The notes under the pieces were generated by a model. It had not been told where the DNA came from and searched no databases. It saw only the letters and a list, made by a program, of their open reading frames with translations. The position numbers were made by a program, and so were the translations under genes. From the NCBI GenBank assembly GCA_963971285.1, contig OZ020248.1, positions 10,664,001 through 10,728,000 of the forward strand: a stretch of 64,000 bases of DNA, in the 5' to 3' direction. Shown piece by piece: positions 14,801-28,986 of this stretch (its first letter is position 1; each line of letters starts with the position of its first letter). Origin of the DNA: Astropecten irregularis. Lineage: Eukaryota; Echinodermata; Asteroidea; Paxillosida; Astropectinidae.

Positions 14801-16103
14801 TAACTTCAGCAGCCTGACTTGGAACTATGCGACGATATGGCAGATTTATAGGTTTATCATCACAGACCTTAATCTCATGAGGGATTAAATCACAACATCC
14901 CAAGTCAAATGGTCCTAAGGAAAATGCTTTCCCATGCTTCTGTATTAACCTAGCTGCTGCTTCAGCATCAGTGGCTCCCAACTCCCCAAGACTAAGACCA
15001 GGAGGTAAAAAATACGTTGAACCATCTGAGAATGTAAACAATTCTCTTGATTTGCTACTCGGATTGTCATTATTGACATCACTACACTCATGCAAATCCA
15101 CACCAGGCCCCTCATTGTGCCTATGGTCAACAAAAACTTGGTGCACGGAAACTTCATAACCAACATCACAACTATCCAACAAAATTTGTTCCGTCACCTC
15201 CACCTCCACTGCCTCTGCCACTTTAACAAGTGCAGGGATAACTAATGGCTCAGGATTTGTGTTTGCCACTAACACCGAAATTGGGCCCTCATCCACCAAT
15301 TGGACCCCATCTAACACTTTAAAGGTGTTTGGTGAAGATTCATCATCACCAATCACCGACACAGGAGAACATGATTGCACCAACACAGACTTCTCCGCAA
15401 CAGTGACACTAGGGTCACTCAAATTACATCGCACGGCCCCAACAGACCTTGCAGGTATAATGGTGTGCTCACTGGCACACACCTCAAAAACTACAGGTGT
15501 TACATTACTTTCCTGGCAACCTGACTTACTGACCCCTCTTTCAGGGTTCTCAACTGAATTAAACCACTGCAATGCTAGCCCTAAATCCTCACTCAACTCC
15601 AAGTTCCTAAATTTATTCAGTCTAGACGACAATTCTCGCAGAGTATTACAACCTAGCAGAACTGGACTTCTTTCACGGATTTTGCCATTGGCCTCATCAC
15701 TTAATACAAGAAAGCTAGCAACAAACTTTTGCCCAAAAATCTCAACTGGAGCCTCCAAATACCCATCTACTGGGACAGATTGGCCATTTACGCCAACTAG
15801 TTTCACAAATTCCCCCACATCATCTAATTCTCCTAATTTCTTGGACAATTGTTCACGATAAAATTTGGCAGACACCAAGGAAGTAACGGCACCCGTATCC
15901 AACACACAATTTGCCCGAGCCCCAGCTATCAGAATACTAGCAGAAGGAGAGCTCGCAATGAGCTTTTTCCTTTCATCTGCTGAAATGAGTCTGTCCAAAC
16001 TTAGAGGTTCAACACCATCTGTTTGGTTTGTGGGCTCGGGATCACCCCCCGACATAGCGCCCTCTATGGCGGAGGAACACCTTTTCCCGACTCGCCATTG
16101 CAA
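11853..16103 (-). CDS. pol: Retrotransposon Pol polyprotein (protease, RT, RNase H, integrase)
   Basis: The ORF has 1416 codons, open throughout. Aspartic protease: DTG at residues 69-71 (CVLDTGAVTSLV). Reverse transcriptase: YLDD at about 565-570 (VLYLDDLLVFS). RNase H: VEVDASLKGLGACLSQ, with TDNNPLAHL further on. Integrase: an HHCC zinc site (HDQWGH...CFHC, about 990-1035), then catalytic Asp (AIDFLKL), Asp (IHSDQGRNF) and Glu (NGQTERFN). The C-terminal extension is acidic (SSDEDSESKSESSDDE), then basic (RRSKRLRKKKR). The ORF overlaps gag by 40 bases in the -1 frame; the AUG at 16103 is probably not used, since translation should enter by frameshift near residue 5-8. It looks intact and possibly active. 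Confidence 0.95.
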   Translation of the reverse strand: MQWRVGKRCSSAIEGAMSGGDPEPTNQTDGVEPLSLDRLISADERKKLIASSPSASILIAGARANCVLDTGAVTSLVSAKFYREQLSKKLGELDDVGEFVKLVGVNGQSVPVDGYLEAPVEIFGQKFVASFLVLSDEANGKIRERSPVLLGCNTLRELSSRLNKFRNLELSEDLGLALQWFNSVENPERGVSKSGCQESNVTPVVFEVCASEHTIIPARSVGAVRCNLSDPSVTVAEKSVLVQSCSPVSVIGDDESSPNTFKVLDGVQLVDEGPISVLVANTNPEPLVIPALVKVAEAVEVEVTEQILLDSCDVGYEVSVHQVFVDHRHNEGPGVDLHECSDVNNDNPSSKSRELFTFSDGSTYFLPPGLSLGELGATDAEAAARLIQKHGKAFSLGPFDLGCCDLIPHEIKVCDDKPINLPYRRIVPSQAAEVKKLLQDLLDQNVIQKSKSPYASPVVLVRKKNGQLRLCIDYRCLNAKTKKDAFPLPRIEETLESLGGSRLFSSLDLAHGYFQVAMHQDSIHKTAFRVPWGLYEFLRLPQGLVNSPSTFQRIMESIFADMNLSELVLYLDDLLVFSTTVEEHLDRLGKVFVRLEQFGLKLNGSKCQLFQASVSHLGHIVSDRGVSVDPGKVDHVRNWPVPTNREQLRSFLGLASYYRRYVKDFSKIAGPLHALSGKAEVKVGNPNGSLPWSDEADQAFNELKQALCSTPVLAYPRFDRDFVVEVDASLKGLGACLSQYDDSGNLHPVVYASRCLRGAEKGYSDLSSFKLELLALKWAVSEKFREYLLGRHTTVWTDNNPLAHLQTAKLGATEQRWVAQLSVFDLEIRYRSGRSNKCADALSRCPPSMSVSETTDIFQTVTQCTPLPHSLRLVQTPECIQIRELMEDVEPPVLASSVLPSYSYEDLASIQKGDDSLGEVWQLWERKWDPGQGGLNSSQNTQGIKSWLREWPRIVEQHGVLYRVVGDVDSGKTFQLLVPKQLQSDIIKAAHDQWGHQGVGRTLGLIKKRCFWPSMTLHVKEHIQKCFHCTVTKATTPVVRPPMRHLLAFQPLECLAIDFLKLDQGHGNIEDVLVMTDAFTKVALAVPCRNQTAEVVAQVLHDHWFVHYGIPTRIHSDQGRNFESRLIQELCDLYGVTKTRTSPYHPQGNGQTERFNKTLCGLIKSVDLKNRRKWPKLLPHLVFVYNSTPHSITGYAPYTLMFGREPSIPLDHLLANTHKNWDEDTIQQRAKFIQKTHAVARDRLTKAAERNKRQYDQRAHAEPLPVGTRVLLKKCHFTDRHKLSDNFDSEQYVVVRHNSHGDVYAVRPITGGTEKWLNRKMIIVDPRGELPEPTSRTPFQNLPVSDDSSDEDSESKSESSDDEVLVSLPPLFKQAVPQQIHGDVPQPEPAVHKPVVRRSKRLRKKKRMGQWPNEIT

Positions 16104-17170
16104 GTGGGGCTAGGTTCCACTGTGGGCTGTTTGCCCTTTCTTTCAAGCATATTTCTTCGCTTGTAGCAGTTGTCCATGGCATGACCAGGCTTTTTGCAAA
16201 ACGAGCATGTTACAGTAGACTTGGGGAAACCCCTCTGTCCCTTCTCTATAGCACTAGCCAAACGCTGAAGGCAATCATTATTGGCTGTTAATTGCTGTAA
16301 TACAGCACTCTGCTGTTGCATCATTACAGCTTGTTGCTGCACTAATTTATCTATGGTGGTAGTGAGGCCTTTCTGACTTTCAACCAGGTCACCCATTGCC
16401 TTAGTGCTAGCCAAGTCTCCACAGCTGGCCCTACTGATCATGTGATCTGTTTGATCTACGGAACATACTGGGTCACTAGAACTTTTGCAATTTGGCAGTC
16501 TATCTACATCTTGGAACAGCTTCAGGGCAAGATTTCTCAAATCAAAGAATGTTGATTTAGGATGGTCAACTATGAGACGGCGTAGTTCTCTACGAACTGA
16601 GGGGTCTGTAACTCCCCTAACAAATTGTTCTTTGAGGGCACCTTCCCTCAGCTGATTCAAAGCTGCCTTTTCTTTAGAATCAGTGGCCATGGACTCCATC
16701 CTATCATACAACCGCATAATTGTTCGGCTGAAATCAGTGAGACTCTCACCCTCAAGTTGCTCTCGTGAGTAGAACGCATAGTTCAACGACTGAACGGTCT
16801 CAGGGGACCCAAATCGCAACCGCAGTAATTCCTTAAGCTTACTAAATTCATCCCTGTCCTTCAAAGGACAACAAAGTACCTCCTCACGGGCAGAGCCAGA
16901 AAGGTGATCCAATGTTGCACTAACTTTTTCCTCATCAGTTAGACTCAACTGCCCAGCATAGGTTTCCAGATCAACCAACCATTCCTTAAGAGTGGGGTCA
17001 CCCGTTTTTCTAGGGGTCCCCCGAAACTTAGTCAGTTTGATGGTCGGGGCCCTCTGATACTTCAAGTTTGAGAAAGCGCTAGCTAGAGTCTCGGCTAAAG
17101 CTTGATTAGATTTGAAGATGGCCTCAGCCATCACTTCAGGCATGGCCATGGTTACAGCTCTATGCCACAC
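16064..17170 (-). CDS. gag: Retrotransposon Gag (capsid and CCHC nucleocapsid)
   Basis: The ORF has 368 codons. Residues about 40-230 form a helical capsid-like region of the Ty3/gypsy Gag type (LVDLETYAGQLSLTDEEKVSATL, FSRTIMRLYDRME). A zinc knuckle CSFCKKPGHAMDNC (CX2CX4HX4C) lies near residue 325-340 and is followed by basic residues. A glutamine-rich stretch (LVQQQAVMMQQQSAVLQQL) precedes it. An internal Met (MAMPEVMAEAI) is an alternative start. It shares the last 40 bases with pol. Confidence 0.9.
   Translation of the reverse strand: MWHRAVTMAMPEVMAEAIFKSNQALAETLASAFSNLKYQRAPTIKLTKFRGTPRKTGDPTLKEWLVDLETYAGQLSLTDEEKVSATLDHLSGSAREEVLCCPLKDRDEFSKLKELLRLRFGSPETVQSLNYAFYSREQLEGESLTDFSRTIMRLYDRMESMATDSKEKAALNQLREGALKEQFVRGVTDPSVRRELRRLIVDHPKSTFFDLRNLALKLFQDVDRLPNCKSSSDPVCSVDQTDHMISRASCGDLASTKAMGDLVESQKGLTTTIDKLVQQQAVMMQQQSAVLQQLTANNDCLQRLASAIEKGQRGFPKSTVTCSFCKKPGHAMDNCYKRRNMLERKGKQPTVEPSPTCNGESGKGVPPP
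16082..16088 (-). promoter_or_regulatory. -1 ribosomal frameshift site GGGAAAA in the gag-pol overlap
   Basis: On the minus strand the heptamer G GGA AAA stands in the gag reading frame (codons TCG GGA AAA GGT), 15 bases before the gag stop triplet at 16066-16064. It fits the X XXY YYZ rule, and slipping back one base continues exactly into the pol frame (V G K R C S S). No pseudoknot was folded. Confidence 0.75.
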
Positions 17171-17785: not shown

Positions 17786-18204
17786 TGTAGTGATTTCACC
17801 AGTGCTGCGGTTTCACAGCATACGAGATGGGGCTCATCACAAAGTTAATTGGGATCAGTGAAGTCAATCATCAGTAATTAGGAGACACAGAGACAGATGA
17901 AGTTGAATTTCAGTTAATCAATAGAAGAATTTATTCAGTCAATCAGTGTGTTCATTTGAAGATTGGAGAAATCAAGGAATCAATCACAGTTCAATAATTT
18001 TAGCAGCCAACCGGAAGAAGAAGAATGAAGCTCTCCTCCAACCCCCAAATAAAATGATGTCAAGATCAAGATTTAAGACAAGATCTCAAACAAGATGAAA
18101 ACAAGAACAAGATCAAGATAAGATCCCTGGGGTAGTAAGTGTCTGCAGGTAAAACGAGACAAAACAGAACGGCAACTAAAAATGTGTACAGCGGTCAGTG
18201 ATAC
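17786..18204 (-). repeat. 5' LTR of the retrotransposon, first 419-bp segment
   Basis: Matches 9278-9696 of the other LTR and stops at GTGATAC (18198-18204), the left copy of the P-transposon target duplication. Confidence 0.93.
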
Positions 18205-18238
18205 CATGGAGCTAGGAAGAGAAGGAGATCGAACTTCC
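18205..18238 (+). repeat. Left terminal inverted repeat of the P transposon
   Basis: 34 bp: CATGGAGCTAGGAAGAG followed by aaggagatcgaacttcc. Its inverse is present at 28216-28262 with a 12-bp internal duplication. Confidence 0.9.
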
Positions 18239-18488
18239 CGGGCGAAAATATGCAGCCAATTAGCGCTATCTCTACCCCCATTGCTTCAGTGCAGCGACCG
18301 CCCACAGAGATCGCGTAAACAATTCAGCTTCACGGTGCCCTGTGCACAGATGATGACCGCCGCTTTTCGCTGGTAACCAACAACCAGCATGTTTCACTCC
18401 GTGTTGAAGTATGCTGGCCAATGTATTCCTACGTCATATCGCTGCATGTAAATTGCAGACTGGAGTAAACCTTTTGGAAACGAACAAA

Positions 18489-18610
18489 TGGTTTCGGCAT
18501 GCGCAGTACGTTCAATAAGTGACACGTTGTTTTCATGTGGACAACGAATGGTAGATATTTTCAACAGCTTTCGAACGATATATTACTCACCAAATTCCGC
18601 CGAGATTTCG
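18489..18610 (+). promoter_or_regulatory. Probable promoter and 5' UTR exon of the transposase gene
   Basis: A NRF-1-like core ggcatgcgcagt lies at 18496-18507. A good donor (tttcg|gtaagttac, GT at 18611) pairs with an acceptor after tttatttttcag (AG at 19709-19710), giving a non-coding first exon and a 1.1-kb intron before the coding exon. This is inferred from splice-site quality only. Confidence 0.4.
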
Positions 18611-19710
18611 GTAAGTTACATTAGTATTTATGAAAAATCTCATAATAAATATGATATTTATTGGAAGTGTCATTACTGTTTTTTTCACAAGTGTTCTCGA
18701 TTGAAATATTGGGTGTTTTACGGGCATGAATTGAGCATTCCAGTGGTGCCTTATTCACTCGTACCCAACCTTACCCAACTCGAAACGATCGCTCCAAAAA
18801 TCATGAAGTGATACGTATGAATATTCATTTTCGTTTGGAATTGCAACTGATGTTGGAAAAAATATCGCGTCTGTTTAACCGCCATGTTATAGCGTAAAAT
18901 TATTAATGCTTTTTGTTGATTTAAACCAAGTCAAATTGGCCTAATTCATTTTAGGCTGCCAAGGCAATAGGACTAGTATTAGTTTAGTACAGTTTTTAGG
19001 CCTATATTTAAAAAAAAAAGATTAGGCGGGCCTATGAAAATTGAAATGAAAATAATTAATCAATTTCTGATTGTGTTGAAACATTGAGACTCATAATAAT
19101 TTTTTATTGACTTATAGCTGCTATCTTATCTAGGCCTATCAGTTTTTGTGAAGAGCTGCATAGCTGTAATGAAAAGAAATATTTTATTGTTTTAAGATTT
19201 AGCCTACATACATGTAGGCCTAACCCTGAATCCAAGTTATGAATATGAATTATGATTTAGCTTATCTGAAAAGTAAACTTTACAGGATTATTTCTGATGT
19301 AAAATGATTCACTTCGAAGAAGCAGTCGTAGGCCATTTTTGTTTGCAAAAAAAAAAAAAATTTCAAAACACCCTTAATAATGTAATCATGGAGCTAGGAA
19401 GAGATGTTACACAGTACGGAGAGTATGAAATTAAAAAATATATTAATGACATTGGCTAATTTATCCTGCGATACAAAAAGATAATCGTTTATTTCTGAAT
19501 TTTGAATTTGTTGAAGGACACCACTTAAACTAGCCAAAAACTTGAAAAAAGATAAATGAGAGTAATTTTCCTTTTTAGTAATATAAATAATGCATACAGT
19601 AAATTGTGGGTATGGATTTTCATAATGCACTTCATGACACTGTGGCTACAATTATGCATATTTGAATTTTTTTAATTTAATGTTTTTGTGATTTTACTTT
19701 TATTTTTCAG
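18611..19710 (+). other. Probable 5' UTR intron of the transposase gene
   Basis: AT-rich and non-coding. It contains an 18-bp internal copy of the transposon terminus (CATGGAGCTAGGAAGAGA at 19387-19404) in the same orientation as the left end. Otherwise featureless. Confidence 0.45.
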
Positions 19711-19836
19711 GATTTTTTGTATTCAGGCACGACCCTGGTGACATCTTTGTTTTGTAAAGGCTGAGTTAAGAAGCTTTGTGAATGCTTGCAACACACATGC
19801 TTCAAATGGAGGCTTATTCTACCATGGTATTTTATC

Positions 19837-22800
19837 ATGGCCAGTTCTGAATTGTCTCTTCAGAACATTTGTAGACTCTGCGGAAAGGAAGGGGCTGTGC
19901 AAGTTGGCAGGACTCCACATAATAAAGACACCTACACAAATATAATTCAACGAGCCCTTAACATCGACATCACATGCGACAATTCTTGTGTTCATCCACC
20001 GTTCATTTGTCACAGCTGCGAGAGGAAGTTGAAGATCTGGTGGGATAAAGAAAAGCGCCACAAGAAGGACAACATATGCAACATTAATGTTCCTCAATTT
20101 GTTGAAGTAGGCTGCCCACATTGTTCCTCATCGGTCTCGTCATTTGAAGACATTGCCACGTGCCACAACTTGGTAGTATGGCAGGGCCCAACCTTCATCC
20201 AAGCCATGAGAATGTGGACAAATGGGCTGCCATGTGCATTGGTTCGGAAACTGGCAGACATGTCATGGGAGTTATTTGTTTGTAACATTCAAGTTGTATC
20301 TGGAAGCGCCGCAATTGAGGGCCTACCCACTCGTCTTGAGGACAATGCCAGCATTGTTGCCCTCATACATGCCGTCGCCAACACGAATGTTTGTGTTGGC
20401 GTCAATGAGTTTCCTGTATTGGTGAAATCCAAGTTTGGTATGAAGGGAGAAATACCTATCACCATAACCGGAAGCGATGTGTACCAGGTCCAGCCATTCG
20501 AGACGGTGCGCCACAGGAATTGCTCACTTCTTATCAAGAAGCCAGCAACAAGGTGCACAATCTGCAAAGTGCATCGCGGTGATCTGGCATCTGCAGAGAA
20601 CCGGATGACCAAAAATGTGCCAGTCACTGGAAGCAGTTCCTGCACGAGAAATGATCTAATGAGTCGAGGAGATCTTATCCGGAAAACCACTCTTCTCAGC
20701 CAGGAGAAAAGATGTCTGCAACGAAAGACCAAGAGCATGGCTGCCCAGATCACCAACCTTATTGAGCGTGAAGGCACAGAACTACAACCAGAACAACAAC
20801 AACAACTTGAAGTGTGTGTCGCAGAGCATGATGATACACTGAAGGAACTACTGGGGCATGGAACACCAGCATCCCTTCTCTGGGAGCAGCAGAAGAAGAG
20901 TGCCAGCAAAGGAAAGGGGATGCGCTGGCATCCAGCTGTAATTCGCTGGTGCATTGCTGTTCGTAGTAAGTCCGCTAGTGCCTACAATCTCATCCGAGAC
21001 AGTGGTTTTCTTCACTTACCCCACCCTAGCACTCTCCATCCATATGCTCATTTTGGCAATCCTCAGTCTGGTTTCAATGCAGACATGATGAAGCGTATAA
21101 TGAGCGACATCAAAATCACATCACTGGCTGAACATCAGCGGAACATCACTCTGGCATTTGATGAAATGAAGGTCAAATCTGACCTCGTATATAACATGAG
21201 GTCTGGGCGCATAGTTGGGTTTCTTGATGTAGGAGATATTGCCAATGCTATCAATTCCTTTGAAAGGAAATGCAAAGGTGATGAGGATCCTCCACTTGCA
21301 TCCCACGTCCTTGTGTTAATGATACGGGGTATCTTCACTTCATTACGTGCTCCCATTGCATACTATGCAACCTGTGGTGTTTCCAGTTACCAGTTGTTGA
21401 CAATAATGAATGAAGCCATCTTGTTGCTTGAGACTGCTGGTTTCAAGGTGAGAGCTATTGTCTCGGATGGAGCATCTGCAAACAGAAAGTTCTACCGGCT
21501 GTTTGGTGAGACGGAGCAGACTGGGACATCCTACAAGGGCCCAAATCCAGCCAACTCCTCAAGAGATGTGTATTTGTTCTGTGATGTTCCTCACCTGTTG
21601 AAGACGACCCGCAATAATTGGGAAAATTCTGGATGGAACAACAAGACCAGGAACTTACATGTATGTATTCATTATTTTGTATTCATCGTTTGGTGTTTTC
21701 TGTCTGTGTTTATTTCTTTCTTTTCTTTCTTATCCTTTTTTTTGGGGGGGGGGAGGGCACCAATTTCCTGTGTTGTCAACAACCGTAAACACAAGTGAAT
21801 TCAATATAGATGGATGTTGTGTTTTGGATTTCATTAATTCATTTATCCAATTTTTATTTACCTTGCAACATGTTATTTTACCTCCAATAAAGGTGCATGG
21901 TTCTCAATCTGTTCTTTGGTGTTTGTGATATTGAATCCTGAGAATTGGGAACCAGTTTCATTGTTATGCATTATTTAGACTTCATCTGTTTATTCTTTGA
22001 TTTAGTTCCGCAAGCAAGACATTAAGTGGGGACATCTGGTTCAGCTGTACGAAAATGATGTTGGTCTGCAGAGGGCATCTCCTGGTCTGCGGAAACTTCA
22101 CAAACTGACGTACGAACACCTCCATCTGACACCATCATTACGAATGCGGGTTTACATGGCTGCCCAGGTATTGTACTTTTTTTTTTTAGATAAAGCAAGC
22201 ACCATTTTAATACTGAACTTTCGGTTCCCATACAATGTATGGACCACGGCAGAGATTGATTGGTTCTAAACTTGTTAACATGTTTGATGAACTTTGCTAG
22301 CCCAACCACTAATGCATTTTTGTCTTTGGAAATTCCCGATAATAGGTCAGACGTAAGATTTGTACCAGCCATTAATTTTAAATTCTCAAGCAGCACATGA
22401 AAAAAAACATTTAAAAAAAAGCATGTATGATTACATGAAAACACAAAAAGAAGCATGTTTAATTGCAAAAAATGTGCAATTACAGTACATTTATTTTTCA
22501 TCTACTCACAAACAATGCTAATATTATTTTATAACAACATGCAGAGTTTTGCATTGGACCAAAATATTATTCCAATACTTGAAAATGTCAATTATTTATT
22601 TCCTTTTTATTTTGTTTTATAGGTTCTTAGTTCAACTGTGGCAAATGCTTTAGAGGCTCAAGGAAGACATGATACCAAGTCAACTCAGCTGTTCGTGTCG
22701 CACTTTGACAAGTTTTTCGACTGCCTCAATGTATCAAATCCCCATGACGGAAGGAATAAGTGCAAACCAGCCCTACAAACCTACTCAACACCAGACGACT

Positions 22801-23903
22801 GGCGCTTTAAAGTAAATATTAACATTTATATTTCTGTGAAATCTTTAAAGCAAGACATGGATTTTTTAAAATGGCTTTGGAAAATGAAGAGAAAATAGGC
22901 AATAATTATTGCTGATTAATTTCAGTTGTAAAATGTGCTAAAGATGTTTAAGGTTTTGTTTCTATTAGATAAACTGAACATTAATTAATTGATTCATTTC
23001 CTTTTTCTTAAACCTGTAGTGGCTTCAAGAAAACTTTCTTGGGTTTCTGGATGAGTGGCAGAAGGAGGCAGACAGCTACCAAGATGTGGACAAAGAGACA
23101 AGACGGAAGATGTGTCTCAGCAGAGAGACACTTGAAGGCCTTAGAATCACAAGTAAGTTTGAATTCATGGGACTTGCCCTTAGTCTGGTTCCCGGACCCA
23201 AAAAGCGCCCGACTATTGTCTGTCAAATATAGGGTCAGGTATCGTCTACGTGTACTGGAGGGTCACGTGACCAAAAAAGTCAATTTCGGACTTTTTACGG
23301 AAAAATTAGAAACTCTAAAACTAGCTTCTGCGCCTGCGCAGACATGACAGCTGTGTCATGTTCTATTTTTAACCGTAGCCGATACCTGACCTAAGATTTT
23401 TAATAAGAGTCGTCAGGGAATCTTTGGGCAGGGAACCAGACTAACTTGCCCTAGGACCTGCTCACCAATGTTTTTGTTCTCCAGTGTGTGTGTAATTTCT
23501 TCTTCGCCTAGGATTATGTGCATTGTGCCACTAGTTAGTCATGTAATTGATGCAATCCATTGTTATTCTTGAAGTACACAATTATTTATACTATTTTTCC
23601 CCTTCTTCAGTTTCTTCCTTTGTAGAACTTGGAAAGACGCTTCTGACTGAACCTGGAGTCGAGTACCTGCTCAGCGAGAAATTCAGTCAGGACCCTCTTG
23701 AGGAGTATTTCTCCAAGCAACGCAGCACTGGGGGAAGTTGTGATAACCCAACGGTGGAGCAATTCGGCCACAACATGTTTGCTCTCCACGTCGCATCTTC
23801 TTTCGTGAAGGCATCAAAGAGGGGTAATGTTCGCAAAGTCCCACAAGGAGAAAATTCCATAGATGACACCCCATTACCCAAAAGGCCAAAGTGTAAATAT
23901 TAG
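19837..23903 (+). CDS. P-element/THAP9-type transposase with RAG1-N-like zinc region
   Basis: Exons are 19837-21660, 22006-22167, 22623-22811, 23020-23152 and 23611-23903. All borders are GT-AG, and the frame is kept across every join: 866 residues. The start ATG (atcATGGcc) has a good context; an in-frame ATG exists at 19786. N-terminus: C12-x2-C15, then RALNIDI...VHPPFICHSC (H53, C58, C61) and C93-x2-C96, a pattern like the zinc-binding non-core region of RAG1. No THAP domain (C2CH with AVPTF box) is present. A coiled-coil-like part follows (SQEKRCLQRKTKSM, then a Q-rich stretch). P-type core: RWHPAVIRWCIAVRSKSASAYNLI, catalytic Asp442 in AFDEMKVKSDLVY, Asp544 in IVSDGASANRKFY, then LFCDVPHLLKTTRNNW. 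The C-terminal part has KLTYEHLHLTPSLRMRV and LSEKFSQDPLEEYFSKQRSTGG with DNPTVEQF. The third catalytic acid was not assigned. It is expected to be a nuclear cut-and-paste transposase; P-type enzymes use GTP. Confidence 0.92.
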
Positions 23904-24383
23904 TGTTCATCTTTTTCTGTGGCCAAAGTATGAATGTAGGGTGTCCATGTGCCACCCATCCAAAAATGTTCTCTCTAAATTTGATATCCATTTTTTTTTT
24001 AGATTTCTCAGATCTCTGCCAGCTTATAGAAAATTAATTGCAAAGCTGATCAGCGGTTTGTTATACCATGAAGCTAGGAAGCTAGTTCCATTGTTATACT
24101 GTACCATAGAGCATTCAGCAAGGAAAAATATACTGCCCATAGGCCTTCTTTGTTAATTACAATTGTACATGTATATAAGACCTCGCTATTTGTTATACTT
24201 GGCATAGCAAGTGGGACAATTTTACCCAGGAACTTTTTGGTTTATGCATATTTACCTCTGTATTGACCTTGTGTCAAGAAAAAAACAAGACTATATTTTT
24301 GAGAAAGTTTAACGTACAATACAATGGAGTCGGCATAACTTTTTTCTGCTTTGGGCATCTTCAACAGAGCTTTTATTCTCAGT

Positions 24384-25531
24384 GGTTTATAGAATGGAAC
24401 AAAATTGGAAAAAGCCATGAAAGAGATTGTTCGGTTTCTGTAAAACAAAATGTATAATATTGAAATTAATGCAAATCTTTTATTTCCGGATACCTCCAAA
24501 ATATATCAGCAGATTTTGATTGCTTCAGTTGAAATTTAATACAATTCAGGAATTCATCTACAAAACCGAAAACTGTTTTCTCAAGGAAAAGTTGAACAAG
24601 AGTATCTAGTCCAGGGTACAGAAATACTACCATGTAAAAATAGAGCAAAAACTGTACATTTATAGGTATTTTTCTTGAAATGAAAATTTCATCAATGTAA
24701 TTATTAGGAGGGCCTGACGCGTTTCGATCCTAGCAGGATCTTTCTCAAAGGCTAAAAGATTTTGAGAAAGATCCTGCTAGGATCAAAACGCGCCAGGTCC
24801 TACTAACTTTAAGCATTTGATATATTGAAGCTCATTTTGGCTGATGAGCAGTTTGCAGCAGTTATTACTTGCATTGTAAATATTCTTAGAGTGGAACAGA
24901 ATTGGAAACAGCCACGAAAGAGAGTGTTAAGTTTCTGTAAAACAAAATGTATAATATTAATATGATTGCAAATCTGTTCTTTCCAGATACCTCCAAAATA
25001 TATCAGCTGATTTTTATTGCTTCAGTTTAAATTCAATACTAAACAATTCAGGAATTCATCTACAAAACCGAAACTGTTTGTGATTTTCTAAAAGTAAAGT
25101 TGAACAAAAGTGTCTAGTCCAGGGTACAGAAATACTCCCCTGTCAAAATAGAGCAAAAACTGTACAGGCATCTAGGCATTTTTATGGAAATAAAAACTTC
25201 ATCATTGTAAATACTCTTAAAATGAAACAGACTTGGAAATAGCCTCGAAAGAGATTGTTCAGTTTCTGTAAAACAAAATGTATAACATTCAATTATTAAT
25301 ATTAATGCATTTATTTAATTTTTTCCGGATACCTCCATAATAAATCAGCTGATTTTGATTGCTTCAGTTGAAATTCAATACAATTCAGGAATTCATCTAA
25401 AAAACCGAAACTGTTTGTCATTTGCTCAATGAAAAGTATCTAGTCCAGGGTACAAAAATACTACCATGTAAAAATACAGCAACTGTATATTTGTAAGTAT
25501 TTTTCTTGATATGAAAACTTCATCACTGTAA
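24384..25531. repeat. Three about 320-bp tandem repeats
   Basis: Copies lie at about 24384-24700, 24889-25209 and 25210-25531. Each has rtggaacaraattggaaa-like starts, gtttctgtaaaacaaaatgt, ggatacctccaaaatatatc, caattcaggaattcatctac and agtccagggtacagaaatac. Copies 1 and 2 are separated by the 24704-24806 hairpin element and its flank. Confidence 0.85.
24704..24806. repeat. Hairpin repeat (CCTAGCAGGATC family), copy 1
   Basis: A near-perfect palindrome: ttaggagggcctgacgcgtt tcgatcctagcaggatc, then its complement after a short loop. The adjoining sequence to the right (gcatttgatatattgaagc, then ggctgatgagcagttt) is also shared, in inverse orientation, with the copy at 39056. Confidence 0.85.
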
Positions 25532-25632
25532 ATATTCTTAGAAACAGGTTTCCAACTTCTGCACATTATAATTTCCTTGTTTGCTTCAATTTACCTGTAC
25601 AGACTGTACGCACTTGACCAGGGAATCAAAGG

Positions 25633-28044
25633 CTACTTTAAATCCTTTCGTAAAGCCTTTTCTGCTTTTTTAGAAATATTTTTCTTTTCTGCCTTTTTCA
25701 TTTGTAAATAAACTTTGATGAATGCATTTGTTCTTGTTTTGATGTAGTACTTAACAATGATTTCCATCAATGTTTTGGAGGGGTTACCACTAATTTTATC
25801 CTTAATTAGACCACACCAGTAGTTTTGAACTTTAAAATCAGATGTAATTTTTTGAAACAATGATTCCTTAACATCTACACCTTGAAGATTATCTAAATTA
25901 GTTTTAGTCAAAAATGCCCGGCCAATAAATTCCATAGATCTCACAAAAAGGTATACTTGATCTGAAACTTGAAACAGTCTTCCTCTATTTTGAGCATCAA
26001 TCCACTCTTTTGTATATTCCAGAAATGTCTCTGCAGTATTTATGCTTGAAACTTGCCAAGATGATAGGAATTTGCAGTAGAGCTTTGCAGTTTTATTTGA
26101 CTGTTTTTCATATTTTTTTAACAACGAGAATGGAATGTATCCAGCCACATACCGTAGAACATTTTCTTCAATTTTATCCAAGGCCTCGGATTTCTTTGCC
26201 TCATCTGCAGTAGGCATATCTTTGTAATTTCTTGCCAACATAAACCGGGAAAAAACATATTGCAACAAATAATTCAAAGTTAACAGATTGTGTTCACCAT
26301 TAGTAAACAAATTAAGCGAGACAAGGAGTTGTTCCCAAGGCTCTCTTAAGTTGTTTGAAGCCTTTTTGAATCCAACCCACATTGCTTCGTATGCTTCTGG
26401 TTTCAATTTCAATTTTGTGGCTGTATTAACCTGCACCGAATCCCAAATTGTTGCCATGGAAACTGAACAAAATCCTAAAAATTGAGTATGGCTGACATAT
26501 GTAAGTAACTGGGTTACCAGCAACAATACTTTGATGGATATTGGCGAATCAATATTGAACATGGGATGGTCTTTCATGGCCTGGAGAGAGTCCACAAAGT
26601 AGGATGATCCTCCTGTTACAGCATCTTCCTTGGTGTATTTTGCTTCTGGCCTGGAAGCTGAAAGAAAACAAAATAATTTTATTAAATTTTAACTAACTAA
26701 ATGTTTGTTTTCTTTTTGTTTTATTTAATTTCATCTCGCACAAACCAAATAATTTTCAGACTTAAAGGTAGTATCACACTTTGGTAACGTACCGAAAACA
26801 AGATCTTCACAGATTGACCTATAACTTACATGGGATAAAGATGGTGATGGTAGAAACATGTCGTTAAAATATTTCTGCCTGAAATGGTTTTGTTTTTTCA
26901 AGAAAAGAGTAAAACCAGTGACCGAAAACAGTTTTGAACTCGGGGTGAGATCAAAACCATTCTTTATGTTTTATAAGAAAAGTTGAGTCGTGTTTTTGCA
27001 AAAAACTTTTTTTATCTTTTAAAGATCAAAAATAAGAGAGAAAAATACAAGAAATAATGTGGTTGTTTTTCACTGTTTTCTCAAAAAGTAGGCACCGTAT
27101 GGGATTTTTTCATGGTACTGTATCTTCGTTGGTATTTTTTGCCATGAATATGTAGGCCTATTTGTTTGTTAAAACAAAGTATGATATTACCTTTAATAAC
27201 TGATACTAAGAATAATTGTACATTATATACAATATCTGGGAGGCAAATTACCTTGTTTTCTCCCTTTCTGGCCATCAGTAGACTTGATGTTTTTCATAGT
27301 CCCCGGCTTTGCCTTTGGTGATTCTTTCGGAGCTGCATACGAGAAAATATGAAAGATGTAAAACTAAAAGTAGGCTTGTTGTAGACAAGTGCGCTACGGT
27401 CTTACAGTCTATGTAAGATTTTGTTGTCGTTATTTGATTTACAGTGTTGCATGTAACTTCCTAAAACCAGATGGTGATCCACTGATAATATTCAGATAAC
27501 TCAATATTATACATACTCCAAAAAGACTAAGGGAAGCCATATTTGATTCTATATTTCGTTCTTTATTCAGAACATCTTCAGGAAATGTAACTTCCTGTTT
27601 GTATGTTTTCTAGGCCTAACAGTTACATGTTCCTGCAAAAAAAAATAAATGAAATGAAAAATGAAAAATGAAAAAAAAAATCCAAGAACAGACAATGAAT
27701 CGTTGGAAGAGTTATTTTGTTGTCGTTTTAAGCCTACCTGATGAAGAGGGCCTGCATTTTTCACAGAGCCATCCTGCCGGGAGAGTTTCCTCTGCCACGT
27801 CTTCCGCTAGGCCTGCACAAGTTAAGTGCCACCACTTTACAGTGCAGGCAACATCGTGACACTCTATCATCGTTACGGTTGGGTCATCTCCGCAGACACA
27901 GTACTTGTCTTCTACCACAGAAGTACTCATGTCTTCATCGATCAACGGATCGAAATCTGCATCAGACCAATCTGAAAAATCGTCTGGAATATCTAAAACG
28001 TCGTAGAAAGTTTCCGAAGCGTCCGAACTCGTACTCGCGGCCAT
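25633..28044 (-). CDS. PHD-finger protein of the P transposon (convergent second gene)
   Basis: Exons (minus strand) are 28044-27738, 27332-27252 and 26657-25633. Borders are GT-AG and phases join, giving 470 residues. The start codon context is aagATGGcc; an upstream in-frame ATG exists at 28086. Residues 1-46 are acidic. A C4HC3 PHD finger follows: C49, C51, C62, C67, H73, C76, C94, C97. Y48, M59 and W71 occupy the aromatic-cage positions used by ING2 and RAG2 PHD fingers to hold trimethylated H3K4, so histone-tail binding is a fair prediction. A short basic linker (residues about 100-145) leads to a helical C-terminal region of about 330 residues containing IEENVLRYVAGYIPFSLLKK, a motif of the sort seen near the C-terminus of P/THAP9-like and other transposon proteins; I do not recognise its fold. 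There is no Kelch repeat, so this is not RAG2. A role in target-site choice or as a transposition cofactor is inference. Confidence 0.85.
26762..27196. mobile_element. TTAA-family MITE in an intron of the PHD gene
   Basis: TTAA at 26762 is followed by AGGTAGTATCACACTTTGGT. It ends ACAAAGTATGATATTACCT with TTAA at 27193-27196. It lies between coding exons 2 and 3, so this family was still moving after the P transposon acquired the gene. Confidence 0.85.
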
Positions 28045-28110
28045 CTTGGATAAGTGCACACGGCCCTCATAGAGCACAATGCGCATGCGTGACAGCCAAT
28101 GGCCAGCTGC
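28045..28110 (-). promoter_or_regulatory. Probable promoter of the PHD gene
   Basis: Just upstream of the start (minus strand) are an inverted CCAAT box (ccaat on plus at 28096-28100) and a NRF-1-like motif, tgcgcatgcgtg, at 28080-28091. The transposase promoter at the other end has a similar gcatgcgca core. The assignment rests on motifs alone. Confidence 0.4.
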
Positions 28111-28215
28111 TTGAGTAGTCAGGCGTGATTTATGTGTGGTTAGATAGCGGTCGTAAAACTGGACACTTTGCGCCGCGGGGCAGTGTCGGCGGTGATCGTA
28201 GAAAACTTTGAAGTC

Positions 28216-28262
28216 GGAAAGTTCGATCTCCTTCTCTTCCTAGCTCTCTTCCTAGCTCCATG
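28216..28262 (-). repeat. Right terminal inverted repeat of the P transposon (with 12-bp duplication)
   Basis: On the minus strand it begins CATGGAGCTAGGAAGAG, repeats AGCTAGGAAGAG, then continues aaggagatcgaactttcc. The left end has only one AGCTAGGAAGAG unit, so the right repeat is 12 bp longer plus one base. Confidence 0.9.
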
Positions 28263-28986
28263 GTGATACAGTGTGTGCAGTGTATACATAGGCGGTCAAA
28301 GGTCAGGTTCACTGTGTACATTTAATACACTACACGCAGCATTACATGCATGCAATACAATGGCTGCATAGAAACAGTACATACACAGTGTACTGTAGTG
28401 TACGTGAATGGTCACACACACATAAATATGCCTAACAACGGCCATAAACAAACAAAATGTCATCGCCTAAAACATGCCAAATCACACTTTCTTCATCAAT
28501 TTACAACAAAAGGGCACTCACCACACGTTCTGGAAGGTGTTGCCTACATAACCACAGAGGCTTCACGGCCTATCCATGCTCAAAGAGCATGCACAAAGAT
28601 GCAAAATAATGCACCAAAAGTTGCAAGTTTGACAACTCCACAGAAAGTGAGTGGTTTCGCGCCTGTACGCTGACACATCACCCGAAGGCGAACAAACATA
28701 TTACTGCGCCGTCATTAAAATAAGACAATTATTTACCCCAAGATAAATATTAAGTTACTTAATACAAAGGATGTTGTATAATAGCTTTGTATTAATATGT
28801 AATAGTACAATTATAGAATGATGAGTTTAATAAAAGAGAAATTATCCCGGAGCCCTATTTTCTATGCGGGACTTATTCTAAGTTACTGTGTGACAAGTCA
28901 TTTCCTCGAACCGGAAACACTAATTTGCATATTATAATGAGGATAACATAAGATATATGGGGGCGGGCAAAGCGCAGATCCCCACA
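28263..28986 (-). repeat. 5' LTR of the retrotransposon, second segment
   Basis: GTGATAC at 28263-28269 repeats the last 7 bases of the other segment. 28270-28986 (717 bp) then matches 9697-10413. The LTR ends CCCCACA, followed by the target duplication CAAA at 28987-28990. Confidence 0.93.

Follow-up and report, generated by a model that had tools for sequence, protein, structure and literature searches.

The locus described here raises the question of whether the two accessory parts of the RAG1-RAG2 recombinase, the N-terminal zinc domain of RAG1 and a partner protein with a PHD finger, have together been joined to an unrelated transposase, or whether only part of that plan is shared. The sequence analysed (the window) is a stretch of 64,000 nucleotides from the sea star Astropecten irregularis (positions 10,664,001 to 10,728,000 of contig OZ020248.1, assembly GCA_963971285.1), and the transposon in question occupies window positions 18205-28262. 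It has inverted ends and contains two open, convergent genes, encoding proteins of 866 and 470 amino acids (aa). Contigs of this genome are designated C with a number, the window being located on C11. The results point to a cut-and-paste element of the P superfamily that has been mobile recently and whose transposase is probably divided over the two convergent genes, with the second gene supplying the C-terminal domain.

An element of approximately 10 kb with inverted ends, a target duplication and two intact convergent genes had been proposed in a first-pass annotation, and its bounds and both protein lengths proved to be exact. The inverted arms are 97% complementary between 18209-18240 and 28215-28246, and 100% complementary between 18203-18222 and 28245-28264. 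A second copy in the same genome (contig C9, 2522413-2532475) shows 99.67% identity over 10,064 bp, is flanked by its own, different 7-bp duplication (ATTATAC), and carries both genes open with one amino-acid difference apiece; the near-identity of the two copies suggests that the element has moved recently. Three other elements were read at both ends, at C9:20570681-20580322 (duplication GTACATC), C8:11495263-11504927 (ATTATAC) and C8:10880145-10886716 (ATCCTAC), so that all five elements with both ends read have 7-bp duplications and none has the 8 bp customary in the P superfamily. The end motif common to the elements is CAT(A/G)GAG(C/G)(A/T)A(C/G)(A/G)AA(C/G/T)AGAAGGAG(A/T)T. An internal copy of the end repeat, as listed for the window element in the table, is also present in the C8:11.5 Mb element (16 bp, approximately 0.95 kb from the end), and none was found in the available sequence of the C9:20.57 Mb element. 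Between the two genes of the window element there are also three imperfect copies of stretches of approximately 56-92 bp, spaced 320-510 bp apart (24375-25530), and an inverted repeat of 46 bp (91%) whose arms are 11 bp apart (24704-24806).

Table. Positions of the ends, exons and domains of the transposon (window coordinates).
Feature	Position	Strand	Remarks
Left target duplication GTGATAC	18198..18204	+	Direct repeat on flank
Left terminal inverted repeat, begins CATGGAGCTAGGAAGAGAAGGAG	18205..18240	+	Three related families have similar ends
Internal copy of the outermost 18 bp of the end repeat	19387..19404	+	Approximately 1.2 kb from left end
Transposase exon 1: RAG1-like head, middle zinc region, helix-turn-helix (HTH), N-terminal part of RNase H, start of GTP-binding domain (GBD)	19837..21660	+	
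RAG1 N-terminal-like (Chapa) domain, residues 8-98	19858..20130	+	CxxC pairs C12/C15, C58/C61, C93/C96
TNP-like RNase H N-terminal domain, residues 410-557	21064..21507	+	D442 and D544 invariant in 21 aligned sequences
Transposase exon 2: part of GTP-binding insertion domain	22006..22167	+	
Transposase exon 3: part of GTP-binding insertion domain	22623..22811	+	
Transposase exon 4	23020..23152	+	
Transposase exon 5: C-terminal part of RNase H	23611..23903	+	No THAP9_C match
Partner exon 3: all-helical domain	25633..26657	-	25714-26184 aligns with P/THAP9 C-terminal domain
Partner exon 2: linker rich in Lys/Arg	27252..27332	-	
Partner exon 1: acidic N-terminus, then PHD finger	27738..28044	-	PHD finger at 27751-27906
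Right terminal inverted repeat	28215..28262	-	Includes a 12-bp duplication that the C9 copy does not have
Right target duplication GTGATAC	28263..28269	+	Direct repeat on flank

Gene 1 consists of five exons on the forward strand, joined across GT-AG introns into a frame of 866 aa without a stop. Its assignment to the P-type transposases was borne out by Pfam matches to the TNP-like RNaseH_N (E 2.4e-27), GBD (5.6e-14) and RNaseH_C (3.8e-8) models and by its sole PDB match, the Drosophila P transposase 6p5a (2.7e-15), in which QDIVEHFF aligns with QDPLEEYF of the window protein. DDE-type residues are found at the P positions, D442 and D544 among them, and these aligned residues are presumably the catalytic ones. 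An RNase H domain with a GTP-binding insertion is the hallmark by which the predicted protein is placed in the P superfamily. Neither a THAP domain in the gene 1 protein nor the RAG1/Transib catalytic core (PF12940) in the window proteins was matched at E up to 1. The protein stops 45 residues past the RNaseH_C match and has no Pfam match to THAP9_C. Twenty transposase homologues had E values of 0.001 or lower; those with a named source come from sea stars, a crinoid, sea cucumbers and a sea urchin. For both proteins of the element, the closest relatives with a named source are those of sea stars.

The N-terminus of this transposase was compared with RAG1 using a hidden Markov model (HMM) built from the RAG1-like protein of this genome and three open reading frames (ORFs) carrying Chapa and RING domains, with no P-type sequence included. 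The window head scored 42.3-42.4 bits against this model and 19 of the 20 transposase relatives scored 20.6-52.2 bits (P0039 gave no match), compared with at most 7.9 bits among 264 decoys made by reversal or shuffling. Profile-profile alignment of the P-type heads with the RAG1-like/Chapa-RING set gave a probability of 98.9%. When a profile made from 12 of the 21 P-type N-termini was searched against all PDB chains, the top match was 21wb, the structure of the RAG1 N-terminal domain (E 7.2e-9 over the whole sequence and 3.1e-6 for the best single stretch), followed by full-length RAG1 (2.2e-4). All three CxxC pairs, together with the D...HP motif, align in order, and a His before the third CxxC is present in several relatives and missing from the window copy. 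These comparisons make the homology of the gene 1 N-terminus to the RAG1 N-terminal zinc (Chapa) domain firm at the level of the family.

It could be argued that the head is an ordinary zinc-finger-associated domain (ZAD) and that its likeness to RAG1 is superficial. The Pfam zf-AD model passes its cut-off of 28 bits in one of ten relatives scanned (P0024, 30.2 bits), outscores the RAG1_imp_bd model in P0021, P0022, P0024 and P0028, and does so in the window head scanned alone as well (19.7 as against 18.2 bits); RAG1_imp_bd is itself over its cut-off in two of ten relatives (P0025, 33.9 bits, and P0040, 38.8 bits). However, the two families overlap, since the RAG1-like protein of this genome also matches zf-AD weakly (20.3 bits), and the third CxxC, common to RAG1 and the P-type heads, falls outside the zf-AD match. 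In the PDB ranking the chain 7po9, which we take to be an insect ZAD, is far behind RAG1 at E 0.016, with three weaker matches following at 0.09-0.41. A ZAD-only head was rejected on the PDB ranking and the third CxxC, and we consider it very unlikely. Since the RAG1-like protein itself shows the weak zf-AD match, the RAG1 head looks like a ZAD-type finger with a third CxxC added.

Gene 2, which converges with the transposase gene, has three exons on the reverse strand, joined across GT-AG introns into a 470-aa frame without a stop. The 48 residues ahead of its first PHD cysteine include 15 acidic residues and 1 basic residue. The PHD finger reported in the first-pass annotation was recovered, with the PHD of ING1 as its nearest PDB match (2.8e-6) and with two partner relatives, P0001 (27.9 bits) and P0013 (24.1 bits), over the Pfam cut-off. 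Its zinc spacing is of the ING type, Cx1Cx10Cx4Cx5Hx2Cx14-18Cx2C, in all six members compared. Met and Trp are present in six of six PHDs, and Tyr or Phe precedes the first PHD Cys in five of the six, at places which we take to be those of the methyl-lysine cage; on the basis of these residues the finger would likely bind histone H3 methylated at lysine 4 (H3K4). The last 340 residues of the partner gave an all-helical AlphaFold2 model (mean pLDDT 80.9, pTM 0.50), and because this domain is modelled as helical the partner is predicted to be without the six-bladed kelch propeller of RAG2. A whole-genome search with the RAG2 Pfam family gave no match, but the control genomes gave none either.

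An ordinary one-frame P transposase of the same genome (C8:17.06 Mb) has HTH, RNase H, GBD and THAP9_C in one chain. When the partner profile was aligned with seven ordinary P C-terminal domains, a probability of 85.5% and a score of 47.1 were obtained over 139 columns, whereas the best of 60 column shuffles scored 19.5 and the reversed control 15.6. The alignment is colinear, YIAGY being followed by NRGGL and then by an E further on. The helical half of gene 2 thus appears to be homologous to the P/THAP9 transposase C-terminal domain, a relationship that is supported but distant. Because gene 2 carries a domain that ordinary P transposases keep in the same chain, the transposase seems to be split over two genes, with a likely chromatin reader on the tail that was detached. 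The first-pass annotation had proposed that the same pair of accessory modules as in RAG1 and RAG2 was assembled here, possibly by exchange between transposon lineages. The layout agrees with that proposal, but the identity of the partner does not: with an ING-type PHD near the N-terminus, no kelch propeller and what looks like a displaced P/THAP9 C-terminal domain in its second half, it is only analogous to RAG2 and is no exchanged RAG2 module, whereas the RAG1-like head is a shared module.

The pairing of the two genes was followed across this genome and in other sources. Open full-length partner exons were defined as those partner rows that cover at least 339 residues without a stop; these number 7 of 84 and represent five families, of which two are each present as a pair of nearly identical copies. 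A PHD exon is located upstream of all seven, and a catalytic transposase exon is convergent with the partner at five of the seven loci, the window and C9:2.52, C9:20.57, C8:11.5 and C1:36.5 Mb. In all five elements read at both ends the partner lies between the inverted ends with their 7-bp duplications. A PHD scan of 30 partner loci gave five positives (one decayed, L016) and three more after the sequence was extended, with the C10 locus negative; at the remaining 21 loci, which are decayed, no PHD was found within the flanks, sequence beyond the flanks not being scanned. Both proteins also occur together on three contigs from other sources, as judged by matching contig sizes with orientation not seen: a 398,091-bp contig of Acanthaster planci (LOC110988468 and LOC110988470) and contigs of 17,852 bp and 76,877 bp. 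A mirror-tree comparison of partner and transposase distances over eight paired loci, in which near-identical copies were counted once and the truncated C10 partner and the 220-aa P0047 partner were included, gave r 0.88, a value reached in 2 of 20,000 permutations. Between the two trees, nodes supported at 0.99 or above agree. The proportion of synonymous differences (pS) exceeds that of nonsynonymous differences (pN) in ten of ten PHD pairs; in the pair that has diverged least, omega is 0.14 (PHD) and 0.06 (helical exon), dN/dS being used for direction only, as dS is saturated in eight of the ten PHD pairs.

These results indicate that the two-gene pair is old and kept, and that the partner is no passenger. 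The ING-like sequence of the PHD is the sole support for the alternative that the transposon ends have enclosed a PHD gene of the host or some other chance passenger. That explanation is extremely improbable and was rejected as already contradicted within this genome by the position of the partner in the five fully bounded elements and by the PHD exon in seven of seven open partners, to which the three contigs from other sources can be added.

By analogy with the P transposase, the gene 1 protein would recognize the ends and carry out cutting and joining, with a RAG1-type (Chapa) zinc domain at the usual place of THAP, followed by HTH, RNase H and GTP-binding domains. The RAG1-type domain may bind DNA or protein partners at the ends of the element. 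Gene 2 would contribute, in trans, the C-terminal domain of a P transposase joined to an acidic tail and an ING-type PHD finger, and the two proteins could form one complex through the helical domain of gene 2. Binding of the PHD to an H3K4-methylated nucleosome might then steer insertion to open chromatin. Alternatively, by analogy with the RAG2 hinge, the acidic stretch and PHD may keep the complex shut until such a nucleosome is met; a preprint (PMC11844651) reports that the acidic hinge and PHD of RAG2 inhibit transposition, with gating by an H3K4-methylated nucleosome.

Several observations weigh against a split transposase with a working PHD subunit. The full window protein scores 12.7 bits with RAG1_imp_bd, below the cut-off of 23.3; the first-pass annotation had taken the lack of a significant RAG1 N-terminal hit as telling against its reading, and in Pfam such a hit is indeed lacking for the window protein taken singly, whereas the family has it. 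The PHD of the window partner is likewise below its Pfam cut-off (15.8 as against 24 bits), and an amphioxus relative (Branchiostoma, P0017) keeps the acidic start and has a C2H2 finger in place of the PHD (18.7 bits, below the cut-off of 25.2). In the copy at C10:8.94 Mb transposase exon 1 is open, but the partner is truncated and the available sequence contains no PHD. Copies lacking the PHD gene had been expected in the first-pass annotation if the gene were a chance passenger; the seven open full-length partners all have it, the C10 copy speaks the other way, and the 21 decayed loci showed no PHD within their scanned flanks. The placement of the C10 copy also differs between the partner and transposase trees, with the 17,852-bp contig in one case and with A. 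planci in the other (nodes 0.83 and 0.88). The saturation of dS is to be counted here as well.

A single ordinary P C-terminal domain scored 5.6 bits with the partner HMM, against 4.3 for the best of 500 shuffles; the window partner was unmatched in the Pfam THAP9_C scan; and the precomputed THAP9_C label of two relatives, P0010 and P0017, was not reproduced by our own Pfam scan. In addition, the partner profile had no PDB match at E up to 0.1. All of this would fit a helical half that is an unrelated protein captured by the element, in which case there would be no split transposase. We regard such a capture as improbable, given a colinear alignment that far exceeds its 60 shuffled and one reversed controls, the existence of the precomputed label in the two relatives, and the fact that gene 1 stops ahead of where the C-terminal domain would sit.

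A different role for the partner is suggested by the element at C8:10.88 Mb. Read from end to end, it contains a whole open partner and only the last transposase exon, apparently frame-shifted, and it has a twin at C1:15.78 Mb (read in part) that is 99.9-100% identical over the compared parts. This shortened form was duplicated recently, and in it the partner may act alone, for instance as a regulator. The partner could accordingly be a transposition repressor that competes in the complex and damps transposition, and not a working subunit. Truncated Drosophila P proteins act as repressors, as stated in a review (PMC7776569), and the inhibition attributed to the RAG2 acidic hinge and PHD (PMC11844651) would fit as well. 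Yet five families have retained the gene together with its PHD, with pS greater than pN, for which a subunit is the simpler explanation, and we consider a repressor unlikely, though less so than a captured protein; a divided transposase with gene 2 as its second subunit is retained as the preferred reading.

The element resembles the P/THAP9 group (Drosophila P element, zebrafish Pdre2) in its RNase H with a GTP-binding insertion, its HTH, its DDE-type residues and its inverted ends with an internal repeat copy. It differs in the RAG1-type head, the missing THAP match, the PHD partner, the C-terminal domain apparently moved to a second gene, and duplications of 7 bp as against the 8 bp given in PMC7776569 and PMC10983969. 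By its core features it is a P-superfamily element, without the customary THAP head, one-chain C-terminal domain or 8-bp duplication. With RAG1-RAG2 and RAGL (ProtoRAG, TransibSU) it shares the RAG1 N-terminal zinc domain, two convergent genes, and a second protein with an acidic stretch and PHD finger, whereas the catalytic core is unrelated, the partner is predicted to be without a kelch propeller, and the PHD is at the other end of the protein. The PHD spacing begins Cx1Cx10C here and Cx4-7Cx14-16C in invertebrate RAG2L (PMC7204232), and RAG/RAGL duplications are 5 bp (PMC8355894) as against 7 bp here. Chapaev, Chapaev3 and the mollusc N-RAG-TP also have an N-terminal Chapa domain, but the core here is P-type and there is no RING match. 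The zinc spacing and likely cage residues of the partner PHD are those of the ING family, the difference being that here the finger belongs to a protein which is encoded by a transposon and has a transposase-like domain.

Kapitonov and Koonin (2015) recorded the Chapa domain in no elements other than Chapaev, Chapaev3 and Transib-type ones (PMC4411706), and N-RAG-TP is described at second hand, in PMC8355894 and PMC13337447, as made up of RAG1 N-terminal-like sequence. Among the papers listed in a literature search, with Repbase outside its scope, none connected P elements to RAG1 heads or to PHD partners, and the phrase 'Chapa domain' occurred in PMC4411706 alone of the papers searched. With its Chapa domain on a P core, the window element is a counter-example to the distribution given in that paper, and it touches the old question of the origin of the RAG1 N-terminus. 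We lean towards the view that the RAG1 N-terminal domain is a free-moving module found across Transib/RAG, Chapaev and P cores, and that the plan of the V(D)J recombinase, a catalytic protein with a convergently encoded PHD partner, was invented twice, here by breaking a P transposase into two pieces and fitting the severed tail with a chromatin-reading finger. As an independent natural two-gene transposon with an acidic stretch and PHD beside its catalytic subunit, the element makes the gating or targeting of transposition by such a module testable outside RAG. If confirmed, the natural division of a transposase between two genes that complement each other would also be a useful experimental handle.

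Related sequences were observed elsewhere in the genome. On the window's own contig, the region C11:19.08-22.1 Mb contains 64 of the 84 partner rows and 35 of 52 transposase rows, as fragments (rows, not copies), together with RAG1-core remnants and ordinary P C-terminal domains. Seven partner rows below 19.23 Mb are on the forward strand and the later 57 on the reverse strand, and three transposase rows are on the forward strand. This region is a transposon graveyard, and it could be a one-strand piRNA cluster. A RAG1-like gene at C5:138501-141461 (L072) has an open frame of 1074 aa with a RAG1 core of 450 bits (138.9 in the 680 aa scanned), and a RING finger (zf-C3HC4, 23.2 bits, cut-off 21) between its Chapa domain and core, where echinoderm RAG1L is without one according to PMC7204232. 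Single-frame ORFs of 277-387 aa with Chapa and RING domains (L073, L074-L076 and L077) are candidates for Chapaev or N-RAG-TP-like elements, L074-L076 probably being several copies because their scores are equal.

To the left of the element, at window positions 16064-17170 on the reverse strand, inspection by eye identified a Gag-like ORF with a CCHC-type knuckle, which is probably a retroelement remnant. Ordinary one-frame P transposases of this genome form two groups, one of 819 aa on C8, C12 and C14 and one of 809 aa on C9, C8, C14, C19 and C1. Since the scores are equal or nearly so within each group, these are probably other P elements that have moved recently.

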